Shown: piece by piece, positions 1-60,957 of the stretch | Position numbering within the stretch: position 1 is the stretch's first letter | Layout: the number at the start of each line of letters is the position of its first letter | From: Methanothrix sp. | GTDB lineage: Archaea > Halobacteriota > Methanosarcinia > Methanotrichales > Methanotrichaceae | Assembly: GCF_026419855.1 (NCBI RefSeq) | Contig: NZ_JAOAKP010000004.1 | Location: forward strand, 1-60,957 | DNA length: 60,957 nt | Direction: 5' to 3' | The notes under the pieces: generated by a model | Told to the model about the DNA's origin: nothing | Databases searched by the model: none | The model's input: only the letters and a program-made list of their open reading frames with translations | Position numbers and translations under genes: made by a program

Positions 1-91
1 CATACTGGTTGCTGGATGCACCCATTCATTCGCCAGGAGCACACAGCGGGAACAGTGCCTCCCAAAGCAAGTCATCAAATGGATAAGAGCG
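1..91 (+). repeat. R1 MITE-like repeat, left-truncated by window edge
   Basis: The right part of the R1 dispersed repeat, ending in GGATAAGAGCG at 91. It is nearly identical to the reverse complement of the full copy at 30421-30544, sharing the blocks GGTTGCTGGAT, CATTCATTCGCCAGGAGCACA and AAGCAAGTCATCAAATGG. The left end lies outside the window. The rest of the stretch up to the first gene at 324 is AT-rich and holds no other recognisable gene. Confidence 0.75.
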
Positions 92-2796: not shown

Positions 2797-2911
2797 CATC
2801 ATCTCTGAGATGCTTTTTCTTATAAGGCACTGATTGTGCTATAGGTTATGGCGGATGAATGCTTCCGGCAGTCAGCGTGCATGCCCTTCAGGTTGCCAAC
2901 ACATAAGAGCG
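2797..2911 (-). repeat. Degenerate R1 repeat copy, minus orientation
   Basis: Read on the minus strand from 2911, the sequence begins CGCTCTTATGTGTTGGCAAC and later has GGAAGCATTCATCCGCC and CAGTGCC, in the same order as in the other R1 copies. The distal end is diverged and its boundary is approximate. Confidence 0.5.
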
Positions 2912-3015
2912 CAAGGAAACAGCTCGTTTGGCCGATCTGCTCAGGGTTCTCCACGGATCAACACAAATTACATCATCAGACCGAATTCTTTTAATATGGA
3001 TTACGTTAATCAACG

Positions 3016-3732
3016 ATGGGGGAATCGGTTATGGATTTGAAGTATGTCGCGATAATGATGCTGATTTCTGTATCTGCTGTATCACTCGCATCTGCAGCTG
3101 ACGTTCCCACGATAACAGTTGTTGGGGAGGGCAGTGTGACAGTGCCTGCGGATATTGTGTACATCTCCGTATCGGCATCAAGCGATAATGAGAACGTGAC
3201 AGAGGCGTACGCGGAGAGCTCTGAGAAGCTGAACATCAGCCTCAATGCTATAAGGGATGCATGCACAAAGAACTGTGAGATACTTCAGGGATACTCAACA
3301 GGTATTCAGAGCACAAAGGTATGCAGCAGAGGCGCATCGAATGAGAGCATATGCGTGAACCAGACCACTGTGACGGTATCTGCTTCGATACGTCTTTCGA
3401 ACCCCACGCAGAGCACCATCGAGAGCATCAAGAAAACTGCAGAGAGCACAGGGGCGTACGCTGCTGTGACGGGCTATGCGCTGAGTGATGCCACAAATGC
3501 AAAGAACGAGGCGCGGAAGAAGGCTGTTGAGAACGCCAGGGCGACAGCAGAGGCGATGGTCAGCGCAGCGGGCGGGAGGCTTGGAAAGATCGTGGACATC
3601 ACAGAGAGCCCGCTATACCTGTGGGACATACCTTTCGGCATCTTCGGACCATCAGTAGAGCCGAGCACTACAGAGCCTGGCATGGTCGAAGTGAAGACGA
3701 CAGTCATGGTCACCTACGAGATCGTGAGCTGA
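3016..3732 (+). CDS. Secreted SIMPL-domain (DUF541) protein
   Basis: 238-residue protein with an N-terminal signal peptide (hydrophobic run after MDLKY, cleavage likely after SLASA) followed by one SIMPL/DUF541 domain. The family hallmark is visible: a start like ITVVGEGSVTVPADIVYISV and a C-terminal half with ARKKAVENARATAEAMVSAAGGRLGKIV. SIMPL proteins are periplasmic or extracytoplasmic and form oligomers; their role is poorly defined (oxidative stress is suggested in bacteria). A TATA box (TTTTAATATGG, about 2990-3000) lies about 25 bp before ATG 3016, which allows a leaderless message. ATG 3031, preceded by GGGGG, is the alternative start and gives a more typical signal peptide. The gene stands alone. 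Confidence 0.85.
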   Translation: MGESVMDLKYVAIMMLISVSAVSLASAADVPTITVVGEGSVTVPADIVYISVSASSDNENVTEAYAESSEKLNISLNAIRDACTKNCEILQGYSTGIQSTKVCSRGASNESICVNQTTVTVSASIRLSNPTQSTIESIKKTAESTGAYAAVTGYALSDATNAKNEARKKAVENARATAEAMVSAAGGRLGKIVDITESPLYLWDIPFGIFGPSVEPSTTEPGMVEVKTTVMVTYEIVS

Positions 3733-19865: not shown

Positions 19866-22457
19866 GTGTCGTACGATCCTGTCTCAAAATGGGAGGAGTT
19901 CATCCGCTCCAGGTACTGGGACGATCTCCTGAAGCTTGCGGAGTCGTATCCATCGACAAGAAGCCTGATCGTGGATTTTGCGGATCTCGACAGATACGAC
20001 ACAGAGTTCGCGGACGACCTTCTCGAGAATCCTGATGTTATGCTCGATGCCGCTCACACCGCTCTTCAGGATATAGTGCTTCCTGTGGATGTGGATCTGA
20101 GCGGGGCGCATGTGAGGGTTGTGAACCTGCCGCAGCACCTAAAGACGAGAGATCTCAGAAGCGATCACATCGGGAAGCTCATAGCCATCGAGGGCCAGGT
20201 CAGGACAGCGACAGAGGTCAGGCCGAAGATAGTCAGGGCAGCATATGAGTGCCAGCGATGCGGACATGTCTTTTATGTTGAGCAGTCAGGGACGAAGTTC
20301 ATAGAGCCGTATGAGTGTCCAAACGAGGCCTGCGACAGAAGAGGGCCGTTCAGGTTGCTCCCCAAGAGATCGCAATTTGTCGACGCGCAGAAGGTCCGCG
20401 TTCAGGAATCGCCCGAGGACCTCAGGGGAGGAGAGCAGCCTCAGACCCTGGATGTAGAGCTCGGCGACGATCTTGTGGGCAGAATCTTCCCGGGAGACAG
20501 GGTGATAATCAACGGGATCCTGAGATCTTATCAGAGGACAACACAGAGCGGGAAGAGCACGTACTTCGATCTCTTTCTCGATGGAATCAGCATCGAGATG
20601 ATGGAGCAGGAGTTCGAGGAGATCGAGATATCGCCGGAGGATGAGAAAAGAATTCTGGAGCTGAGCAGGGATCCAGATATCTACGGAAAGATCGTGAGAT
20701 CGATCGCCCCATCCATATACGGCTACGAGGATGTGAAGGAGGCCCTGGCCCTGCAGCTCGTCTCCGGTTTCTCAAAGCGTCTTCCCGATGGGGCAAGGAT
20801 CAGGGGTGACATCCATATACTCCTGGTGGGAGATCCTGGGGTCGCGAAATCGCAGCTTCTCAGGTACATGGCGAAGCTATCCCCACGGGGCATATACACA
20901 TCTGGAAAGAGCTCGACATCTGCCGGTCTCACGGCTACTGCGATAAAGGATGAACTCGGTGATGGGAGGTGGACCATAGAGGCCGGGGCGCTGGTGCTCG
21001 CTGATAAAGGCATCGCAGCAGTGGACGAGATGGACAAGATGAGCCCGGACGACCGCTCAGCTCTGCACGAGGCCATGGAGCAGCAGAGTTACCACCCCCT
21101 CACAGAGATACAGCTTTCCGACGGCCGCAAGATTCGCATCGGCGAGTTTGTAGATTGCCTGATGAAGGATCGTCATGATGAAATCATCCGCGGAGTAGAT
21201 TGTGAGATACTGCCTCTGAATGGAGATATCAAAGTATGGAGCACCGATTTAAGTAGGATCTTCGAGCTGCCGGTGGATAGAGTGAGCAGGCATCGTGCTC
21301 CAGATCATTTCATCAAGATAACGTACTCCAACGGCCGGGAAATCATCGTCACTCCAGAGCACCCTGTGTATATCGCCATGGACGGTATCGCTTGCATCCC
21401 AGCGTGTGATGTCACTAAAGGAAACCTTGTGCCTGCGCCTAGATCGATTCAATGCAGCACAAATGAGCCCGAGCCGATAAAGTACCTGGAAGTCGTGGAA
21501 GTAGAACTCATACCCAACGAGGGAGAGTACTCGGCGGATTATGTTTATGACTTAACAGTTGAGCCTACCCACACCTTCATCTCCCAGGGTCTCGTGCTCC
21601 ACAACACGATCAGCGTTGCGAAGGCGGGTGTCATGGCAACTTTGAAATCGAGGTGCGCGCTGCTCGCAGCGGCGAACCCGAAGATGGGGAGGTTCGATAA
21701 GTACGAACCGATAGCGCCGCAGATAAACCTCACCCCAGCCCTGATGTCCAGGTTCGACCTGATTTTCGTTCTGACAGATGAGCCGAATGCTGAGAGGGAT
21801 GCGCACATAGCCACACACATACTGAGGAGCAACTACGCTGGAGAGCTATCGAGCCAGAGGAGCATCAATCCATCGATAAACGATGAGGACATCGAGAGCG
21901 CCACCGAGATCATAAAGCCTGAGATAGAGCCGGAGCTGCTCAGGAAGTATGTGGCCTATGCGAGGAAGAACATATTCCCGACACTTACAGAGTTGGCAAT
22001 GGAGCGATTCAAGGAGTATTACATCAATCTCAGGAGCCAGGGGCAGGATGGAAACAAGCCTGTGCCTGTCACAGCGAGACAGCTCGAGGCCCTCATACGT
22101 CTCGGGGAGGCCAGCGCCAGGCTGAGGCTCAGCAACCAGATCACCGAAGAGGATGTCGATCGGGTTATAAGAATCGTTGAGTCCTGCCTGAAGAAGGTGG
22201 GCGTCGATCCTGAGACAGGGATGCTGGATGCGGATGTGATCAGCATAGGGATGAGCAAGAGCACCAGGGACAAGACAAAGCTGATGCTGAACATAGTCAG
22301 GGAGCTCGGAGGTAAGGAGGGTGCCCAGATCGATGACGTCCTCGACAGGGCTGAGGCCGAGGGCATAGACAGGGAGAGGGCTGAGGAGATAATCACGCGC
22401 CTGAGGCAGGAGGGCTCCCTGATACAGACGAGCAGGGGAACTCTAAGGGCTGTCTGA
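19866..22457 (+). CDS. mcm: Replicative helicase MCM containing a mini-intein
   Basis: 863 codons; 690 residues after removal of the intein at residues 408-580. Archaeal MCM hexamer, the replication-fork helicase. N-terminal domain with zinc motif CQRCG near 129 and CPNEACD near 150; AAA+ core with Walker A GDPGVAKSQ near 320, Walker B VDEMDKM near 385, sensor 1 AAANPK and arginine finger MSRFDL; a C-terminal winged helix with REEGSL-type ending (RLRQEGSLIQTSRG). Starts with GTG 19866; a TATA box TTTATACC lies near 19828. The intein sits between EQQ and TISVAKAG, a conserved segment of the ATPase core. The host protein is otherwise intact, so splicing must occur for function. Confidence 0.96.
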   Translation: MSYDPVSKWEEFIRSRYWDDLLKLAESYPSTRSLIVDFADLDRYDTEFADDLLENPDVMLDAAHTALQDIVLPVDVDLSGAHVRVVNLPQHLKTRDLRSDHIGKLIAIEGQVRTATEVRPKIVRAAYECQRCGHVFYVEQSGTKFIEPYECPNEACDRRGPFRLLPKRSQFVDAQKVRVQESPEDLRGGEQPQTLDVELGDDLVGRIFPGDRVIINGILRSYQRTTQSGKSTYFDLFLDGISIEMMEQEFEEIEISPEDEKRILELSRDPDIYGKIVRSIAPSIYGYEDVKEALALQLVSGFSKRLPDGARIRGDIHILLVGDPGVAKSQLLRYMAKLSPRGIYTSGKSSTSAGLTATAIKDELGDGRWTIEAGALVLADKGIAAVDEMDKMSPDDRSALHEAMEQQSYHPLTEIQLSDGRKIRIGEFVDCLMKDRHDEIIRGVDCEILPLNGDIKVWSTDLSRIFELPVDRVSRHRAPDHFIKITYSNGREIIVTPEHPVYIAMDGIACIPACDVTKGNLVPAPRSIQCSTNEPEPIKYLEVVEVELIPNEGEYSADYVYDLTVEPTHTFISQGLVLHNTISVAKAGVMATLKSRCALLAAANPKMGRFDKYEPIAPQINLTPALMSRFDLIFVLTDEPNAERDAHIATHILRSNYAGELSSQRSINPSINDEDIESATEIIKPEIEPELLRKYVAYARKNIFPTLTELAMERFKEYYINLRSQGQDGNKPVPVTARQLEALIRLGEASARLRLSNQITEEDVDRVIRIVESCLKKVGVDPETGMLDADVISIGMSKSTRDKTKLMLNIVRELGGKEGAQIDDVLDRAEAEGIDRERAEEIITRLRQEGSLIQTSRGTLRAV
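21087..21605 (+). other. Mini-intein within MCM (Ser1, no homing endonuclease)
   Basis: 173 residues inserted in frame in mcm. N-terminal splicing block A: SYHPLTEIQLSDGRKIRIGE, with Ser in place of the usual Cys1. Block B: VTPEHPVYIA (T-x2-H). Block F: YVYDLTVEPTHTFISQG. Block G: LVLHN, followed by Thr+1 of the C-extein. Between B and F there are only about 60 residues and no LAGLIDADG motif, so no DOD homing endonuclease. The extein junction EQQ/TIS matches uninterrupted MCM proteins exactly. Confidence 0.93.
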
Positions 22458-25546: not shown

Positions 25547-25963
25547 AAATCAAGGTGATATTGGACTGAATTTGAAAATTATCTATTTTAATCGGTAAAT
25601 TTTGCTCGAAAATAGCTAAATTGCGTTATTTGAGCAAAAATCAGTGAGGCGTGTTGTATAATCCTGATTAAGCTCAAATTTAAGTTTATCTGTGTGTTGC
25701 CTCTACTGTATATACTTACGAAAACTGAGAAGTTCACAGATCATCTCTTGTTAATCTCTCACAGAAGTTTGTGATCCGATGCTTTTCCTCAGCAACTTCT
25801 TCGAGCCGTAAGATGATCGCGAGCCGGTTTGCCTGAGAGCGAAGGATTTCGAAGTCTGATCCCATGCTTGCGCGGAATGGTAAAACCAGACTCATCTCAA
25901 AATGGCCGTGCTCCTATGGGCTCAGCAGCTTGGATGGCGTGCAGGCTGGGTGATGTGATAACT

Positions 25964-26095
25964 CATCCATCGCCATGAATGCGCAGCAGTACCATCGTCT
26001 CTATGGGCAAGATCAGGCAGATGAGATCGACGCTCTTATGTGGTTGGCAACTTGCAGGCCAAGCAGGCTGGCTGCAGGAAGCATTTGGACTGCAC
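25964..26095 (+). repeat. R1 repeat, rearranged copy
   Basis: The right half of one R1 unit (CATCCATCGCC ... ATGAGATCGA, 25964-26030) is joined to the left half of another (CGCTCTTATGTGGTTGGCAA ... GCAGGAAGCAT, 26031-26092). It looks like two truncated units head to tail. The rest of the 790-bp spacer 25547-26340 holds the R2 and IS605-like repeats below; the AT-rich part 25547-25760 contains nothing I can name. Confidence 0.55.
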
Positions 26096-30342: not shown

Positions 30343-30414
30343 AGCGAAGTAGAACGCCGCTGGCTGTATCATCAGATCTCGCCTCCCGGCGGATTCAACC
30401 ATATGAGCCTTTGA
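30343..30414 (+). repeat. R4 dispersed repeat, copy 2
   Basis: About 70 bp aligned with 14605-14674: GCGAAGTAGAACGCC, CATCAGATCTCGCCTC and GATTCAACCATATGAGCC. It directly abuts the target duplication of the R1 element. The spacer 30266-30663 holds nothing else recognisable. Confidence 0.4.
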
Positions 30415-30420
30415 GATAAT

Positions 30421-30544
30421 CGCTCTTATCCATTTGATGACTTGCTTGGAGAGGCACTGTTCCCGTTATGTGCTCCTGGTGAATGAATGAGTGAATCCAG
30501 CAACCGGTGCGTTTGCCCCCTAAGTTCCTGAACACACAAGAGCG
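30421..30544 (-). mobile_element. R1 MITE, complete copy with perfect 8-bp target duplication
   Basis: 124 bp bounded by CGCTCTT (30421-30427) and AAGAGCG (30538-30544). GAGATAAT lies directly on both sides (30413-30420 and 30545-30552), an exact 8-bp direct repeat, which shows transposition into this site. The interior is non-coding. Same length as the copy at 49537-49660. Confidence 0.8.
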
Positions 30545-30663
30545 GAGATAATTTCGCTACGATCCACAGGCAGGGCATCTGTTGCTCTCAGGTTAGGACA
30601 GAAACCTCCAAATCCCATACCAATATCATGATCTACTGTGATGTTCAGCGATGGAGGTTTCTT

Positions 30664-31903: not shown

Positions 31904-31988
31904 GTCGAGGTAGCCTAGCCAGGTAGGGCGCAGGTTTGCTAAACCTGTTCCCCTTCGGGGATCGAGGGTTCGAATCCCTCCCTCGGCG
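31904..31988 (+). tRNA. tRNA-Ser (anticodon GCU)
   Basis: 85 nt. Acceptor GTCGAGG pairs with CCTCGGC (one T-G). Anticodon arm AGGTT-TGCTA-AACCT presents GCT in loop TTGCTAA. A long variable arm (CCCCTTCGGGG) identifies a class II tRNA, and the T-arm is GAGGG-TTCGAAT-CCCTC. Discriminator G at 31988, no encoded CCA and no intron. Reads AGC/AGU codons. An R1 element has inserted 15 bp beyond its 3' end. Confidence 0.96.
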
Positions 31989-32003
31989 CTCAATTTTACA
32001 GAA

Positions 32004-32124
32004 CACTCTTGTGTTTGGCAACTTGAGTTTGTGCAGTATGGCTGCTGGAAGCACCCCATCATTCGCCAAGAACGCACAGCAGAGTCGGTGCCTCTCTGAG
32101 CAGGTAATCAGCTGGATAAGAGCG
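32004..32124 (+). mobile_element. R1 MITE copy with near-perfect 8-bp target duplication
   Basis: 121 bp bounded by CACTCTT (32004-32010) and AAGAGCG (32118-32124). Flanks TTACAGAA (31996-32003) and TTACAGAT (32125-32132) match at seven of eight bases. Interior matches the other R1 copies (GGCTGCTGGAAGCACCCCAT, CATTCGCCAAGAACGCACAG). Lies directly after tRNA-Ser. Confidence 0.75.
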
Positions 32125-32186
32125 TTACAGATCTCAGCTGCTGAGGGATGTGAACGAGATCGGGAAAGCATGTGAAGGTATCGTGC

Positions 32187-49536: not shown

Positions 49537-49660
49537 CGCTCTTATCCGTATGATGACTTACCAGAAGGAGCACTGTTCCTTCTATGCGTTCTCGAAAAAT
49601 GAATGTGCGATTCCAGCAACCTGCTTGCTAGACATCTAAGTTGCTAAAGAAACAAGAGCG
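49537..49660 (-). mobile_element. R1 MITE, complete copy
   Basis: 124 bp bounded by CGCTCTT (49537-49543) and AAGAGCG (49654-49660). Interior blocks TGATGACTTACCAGAAGGAG and CACTGTTCCTTC align with the copy at 30421-30544. No target duplication is visible at this copy, so it is probably older or rearranged. Confidence 0.7.
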
Positions 49661-60773: not shown

Positions 60774-60883
60774 CGCCCTTATATGCTTAGCAACTTGGAG
60801 ACCATTCAGGTTGAGTTGCTGTAAGCACTCATCCATCTTCCAGGAGCGCATAGCAGGATCAATGCATCTACGGGCAGGTTATC
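60774..60883 (+). repeat. R1 repeat, right-truncated by R3
   Basis: Left end CGCCCTTATATGCTTAGCAA, interior GTTGCTGTAAGCACTCATCC and CAGGAGCGCATAGCAGGATC, ending at GGGCAGGTTATCA where R3 begins. The expected ATAAGAGCG end is missing. The spacer 60597-60773 after the AhpD gene shows nothing else I can name. Confidence 0.6.
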
Positions 60884-60884
60884 A

Positions 60885-60957
60885 AACCTAAGCTCCCCAT
60901 AATTTAGGCATATGGATCCGCAGCACACTGATTATTTGTGGGTAATGGCACAGTTAT
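60885..60957 (+). repeat. R3 dispersed repeat, copy 2, cut by window end
   Basis: AACCTAAGCTCCCCATAATT through GATTATTTGTGGGTAATGGC and ACAGTTAT, matching 44877-44948. It abuts the truncated R1 copy and continues beyond the window, so its full size is unknown. Confidence 0.65.

Follow-up and report, generated by a model that had tools for sequence, protein, structure and literature searches.

The 124-bp repeat at positions 30421-30544 of a Methanothrix sp. contig raises two questions, what kind of element it is and what moves it. The window, the whole 60,957-nucleotide stretch analysed, is contig C92 of a 1.9-Mb genome in 147 contigs (G000 below). A sequence-only reading had described the repeat as a MITE (miniature inverted-repeat transposable element) with exact 124-bp copies at 30421-30544 and 49537-49660 and a 121-bp copy at 32004-32124, and all three pairs of coordinates proved exact. 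A sequence profile of 30 diverse copies, run against the window, detects eight in total (E 3e-30 to 7e-9). The features are as follows.

1-91, minus strand: copy cut by the contig start, about element positions 1-90
2800-2911, plus strand: decayed copy, element positions 7-124
25910-26028, minus strand: decayed near-full copy
26031-26085, minus strand: right half (70-124) of a further copy, abutting the copy at 25910-26028
30413-30420, no strand: left 8-bp target duplication GAGATAAT
30421-30544, plus strand: complete 124-bp MITE of the main G000 subfamily, with an 8/8 duplication GAGATAAT
30421-30444, plus strand: left terminal inverted repeat, bipartite, with CGCTCTTAT (1-9) and GACTTG (19-24)
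30498-30505, plus strand: internal CAGCAACC motif, element positions 78-85
30521-30544, plus strand: right terminal inverted repeat; its reverse complement begins CGCTCTT, and the family consensus has AGCAACTTG
30545-30552, no strand: right 8-bp target duplication GAGATAAT
31996-32003, no strand: target duplication TTACAGAA of the copy at 32004-32124
32004-32124, minus strand: 121-bp copy adjoining a tRNA-Ser gene (31904-31989), duplication 7/8
32125-32132, no strand: target duplication TTACAGAT (7/8) of the copy at 32004-32124
49537-49660, plus strand: complete 124-bp copy of a second subfamily, duplication absent (2/8)
60774-60886, minus strand: decayed copy, element positions 13-124

Two of the copies that had been read as truncated, at 2797-2911 and 60774-60883, stand as decayed copies with slightly different limits (2800-2911 and 60774-60886). 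The contig begins inside the copy at 1-91, whose truncation therefore need not be biological, and the supposed single truncated copy at 25964-26095 resolves into the two abutting decayed copies at 25910-26028 and 26031-26085. Seven copies had been counted and taken as a high load. The eight now found are nothing special for this genome, since the left-end pattern has three sites in the 61-kb window versus 86 in the 1.9 Mb of G000. Further G000 contigs start or stop within copies (C114, C108 and C75, for example), and the repeat thus breaks the draft assembly. Elsewhere in the window, an MCM helicase gene at 19866-22457 has an intein-splicing domain match within its protein.

The ends are imperfect 24-bp inverted repeats with a bipartite layout, in which CGCTCTTAT is followed by nine bases and RACTTG. 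Between subfamilies, the 9 outermost bp of both ends, the inner RACTTG/AAGTTGC blocks and the internal CAGCAACC motif (78-85) are near-invariant, the motif being as conserved as the terminal repeats, while most of the remaining interior varies freely. This pattern suggests that the terminal blocks are transposase contacts, and CAGCAACC may possibly be an extra transposase site. The element itself is short, multicopy and carries no transposase gene, and it has no match in a viral collection.

The evidence for movement comes from the lengths and flanks of the copies. In a first sample of 118 distinct full copies, from stretches of G000 and sister genomes, 63 are exactly 124 bp long and 26 more are 123 or 125 bp. 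An 8-bp duplication matching at seven or eight positions flanks 75 of the 118, a match that 0.1% of shuffled flanks reach, and comparing the flanks at 7, 9 or 10 bp yields almost no duplications. The two flanking repeats claimed for the window (8/8 at 30421-30544 and 7/8 at 32004-32124) are present as described. In a second sample (20 stretches of G002, 397 kb), 69 copies are full, and 45 of these have duplications of 7/8 or better. Roughly one full copy in three has no recognizable duplication, which would fit age and recombination.

At insertion sites, the two bases bordering the 8-bp target on either side are A or T (W), and copies are depleted from ORFs (11/70 versus 65% of random points). 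One copy, in G003, lies inside a transposase gene of IS256 type and is flanked on either side by TAAGGGTA. When its flanks are joined at the duplication, they read VVSDAHKGIQKAVESSF (a short translation made by eye), and the frame is that of VVSDGHKGIQSAVESSF in the intact G004 relative. This restored frame pins down the ends and shows that the element moves as a unit. The site orthologous to that of the window element, in locus L031, has no copy, and the diverged intergenic DNA there is not alignable base by base.

In the 50 genomes searched, the family is confined to one genus. With at most three mismatches allowed, the six genomes of the genus have 86 (G000), 3 (G001), 134, 176, 20 and 64 (G005) intact left ends, and the pattern has no site in 44 Methanotrichaceae genomes from ten further genera; the reversed pattern, as a control, has none in any genome. 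A full-length DNA search agrees, with matches in 6 of 50 genomes, all of this genus, and the family is a large one. Copies in other species mostly share 75-83% identity with the main subfamily. Of nine subfamily consensuses, seven have a length of exactly 124, one of 123 and one of 120. The subfamilies are skewed by species, and the displayed members of the largest one all come from G000. Together with the divergence between species, these subfamilies indicate that amplification was repeated and lineage-specific.

Two genomes deserve separate mention. G001 has only 3 left ends versus 20-176 in the other five species, a case of near-loss or of no amplification that makes it a natural control in the search for the gene that mobilises the family. 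In G005 (locus L060, 1640000-1659500), a 6,885-bp segment is copied head-to-tail with three MITE copies in each, and two of the segment copies contain a DDE_Tnp_1 match.

Copies in G002 (L192-L211) and G005 (L046, L055, L071) also include a long form of about 148-200 bp, in which 26-76 bp of TTCGAC palindromes are added at one fixed internal site near element position 57. The form is also seen at L032 3926-4075, a locus whose sequence corresponds to part of the G002 stretches sampled. Perfect 8-bp duplications flank several of the long copies. Of the 27 TTCGAC palindromes in the G002 sample, 23 fall inside MITE hits or no more than 60 bp away; this zone makes up 5.7% of the sequence. Since the insert occurs in at least two subfamilies (and in two species), the options are an old origin, exchange between copies or repeated insertion at one site. 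The window has no such insert.

Copy number, constant ends, duplications far above chance, the lack of a gene and the clean nested insertion secure the assignment as a MITE, and the reading survived a check of other genomic copies for inconsistent ends or missing duplications. The elements have transposed repeatedly, with exact ends and 8-bp duplications. We are highly confident of the wider explanation, a non-autonomous DNA transposon mobilised in trans by a DDE-type transposase and amplified separately in different species. Such a transposase would recognise the bipartite ends, with CGCTCTTAT as the outer and RACTTG as the inner part, and would insert the element where the rim of the target is A/T-rich; an 8-bp staggered cut followed by fill-in would leave the duplication. 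The species of the Methanothrix-like genus have kept the family and amplified it independently of one another. The partner IS would then have been lost from these genomes or be of a type outside the scan described below.

Several transposase families were considered as partner. DDE_Tnp_1 (IS4/IS5) is absent from G000, and the elements of this type in G005 were rejected on their boundaries, which differ from the MITE ends. The sole IS1595 gene of the genus, in G003, is broken over two ORFs and has no CGCTCTT sites around it. All six genomes of the genus lack an IS1 transposase, and two IS1-like elements of sister genera end in GGTCGTG. An IS256 element in G004 is bounded by GTGCCGAATTTTCTGTAATTT-type repeats, and an IS6/IS240-like element in G000 (C65) has the ends GGACCTGTCCGAATAA; neither shares the MITE ends. 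MITE copies at L170 1193-1313 and L171 948-1068 lie within about 0.5 kb of IS6-like transposase matches (two of the three in the genus), probably by chance or through a shared preference for intergenic DNA.

The ends themselves were also followed. When no more than one mismatch is allowed, the end pattern occurs at 98 sites in the complete sister genome G005 (1,879,471 bp), all of them listed. Nearly all of the apparently unpaired sites were read and proved to be MITEs, MITEs that are truncated or interrupted by another repeat, or chance matches, with no IS among them; the others either have a matching end in the list or fall on full copies. This argues against any full-length element in G005. 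Left ends in G000 were counted at 72 and 86, and among the majority that were examined none opens an IS. A pool of 169 left ends from G000, G005 and further loci includes 151 that run on to a right end, and the others are contig-cut, truncated or interrupted. All 104 TIR-like sites in the G002 sample (397 kb) are in or beside MITE hits; a possible 560-bp paired element there holds nested short copies and no transposase gene. Among the TIR-like sites examined in G005, most of G000 and 397 kb of G002, no autonomous element sharing the ends was found, and the transposase gene with matching ends that the sequence-only reading had proposed to look for did not turn up in the stretches and families scanned. 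The case for absence is strong in G005 and fair in G000 but weak in the other genomes, because families such as IS66, ISH6 and ISM1, and most of G001, G003 and G004, lay outside the scan. An autonomous partner would normally supply the final proof, but a missing one does not bar the MITE class, since partnerless MITE-like repeats have already been described (PMC3852290).

It is possible, but improbable, that there is no mobile partner, and that a fixed (domesticated) single-copy host transposase of the genus, with no matching ends at its flanks, keeps moving the 124-bp elements, as a DDE counterpart of RAYT and REP. The high copy numbers in several species and the lack of a full-length element with matching ends in the DNA scanned would agree with such an arrangement, but no candidate gene was identified, and loss of an autonomous IS, the usual explanation for orphan MITEs (PMC3852290), gives the same pattern. 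If true, a fixed transposase would explain the genus-wide persistence, the conserved length and the conserved CAGCAACC.

A partner of the ISL3 family, the guess made from sequence alone, is somewhat less probable still. ISL3 elements typically have 8-bp duplications and a GCTCTT-like end, and the element resembles them in both, the 8-bp duplication being a feature common to several other families. However, ISL3 ends begin with GG, and the element begins with C. The ISL3 transposase (PF01610) is also absent from all six near-complete genomes of the genus, the complete G005 included, in a search that found matches in four control genomes. An ISL3-derived archaeal MITE does exist, related to ISMac21 of Methanosarcina acetivorans (PMC3852290, an entry of Table 4).

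That the copies are immobile regulatory or RNA-coding repeats spread by recombination can practically be dismissed: the interior is partly conserved and the copies are mostly intergenic, but the exact 8-bp duplications and the insertion into a transposase gene contradict it, and there is neither a conserved RNA structure (folding energy of the family consensus -1.15 kcal/mol) nor an Rfam match, on which grounds an RNA element was dropped.

Similar elements are known from archaea. Kamoun et al. (2013; PMC3852290) catalogued archaeal MITEs, including 19 MITE-like repeats with no partner IS, and put the orphan cases down to loss of the IS or to an IS not yet known. Like those elements, the Methanothrix family is short, gene-less and multicopy, with inverted ends and direct repeats. 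Among the entries of their Table 4, new archaeal MITEs have 2-34 copies in one genome, whereas this family reaches 176 intact left ends per genome, six species and many subfamilies. It is real, ordinary in kind, unusually abundant, genus-wide and orphan. In the same table, a Haloquadratum walsbyi MITE related to ISHwa6 (IS1595) is 165 bp long with IR 25 and DR 8 (PMC3852290), comparable in size, inverted-repeat length and 8-bp duplication. That MITE has a known partner, whereas the only IS1595-type gene of the Methanothrix genus is split and has no CGCTCTT ends.

Two other systems share some of its features. The ends of E. coli IS1 contain CCAACTT, and the MITE has a similar inner CAACTT in ends of about 24 bp and a duplication within the 8-9 bp range of IS1, but the genus has no IS1 transposase and the IS1-like ends of sister genera are of the GGTCGTG type. 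REP elements, which are hairpins and depend on Y1 transposases for their movement, do not duplicate 8 bp of target. Like the MITE, they are short, high-copy and non-autonomous, with no full-length IS of the same kind; unlike them, the MITE makes an 8-bp duplication, which implies a DDE-type reaction.

A 2024 review (PMC10969869) lists few archaea with MITEs, and the text of PMC3852290 names neither Methanosaeta nor Methanothrix. The family appears undescribed in the literature searched on MITEs or repeats of these genera; ISfinder and most subscription papers, which lay outside its scope, may record it. The host genus comprises ecologically major acetate-using methanogens, for which no MITE description was found in that literature. 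The present data add a well-documented high-copy family with defined ends, a target rule and subfamilies. With many recognizable duplications in several species and no partner seen, it is a case for asking how such elements outlive or forgo an autonomous partner.

Other short repeats were also seen. One is a second repeat of MITE type, whose ends resemble G(T/C)GCCGAATTTGCTGTAAATT; it occurs at L163 1385-2685 (G004, C1), at L059 near 2900 (G005) and at L169 about 2960-3060 (G000, C65), and is absent from the window. Since an IS256-family element of G004 has similar ends, it is the likely partner of this second repeat. At L094 7386 and L188 2481 (G000), truncated MITEs are joined to a GTGTACT-containing sequence, which at L188 reads GGTCGTGTACT and resembles the GGTCGTG ends of the IS1-like elements of sister genera. 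It is possible that this sequence represents a third short repeat family.
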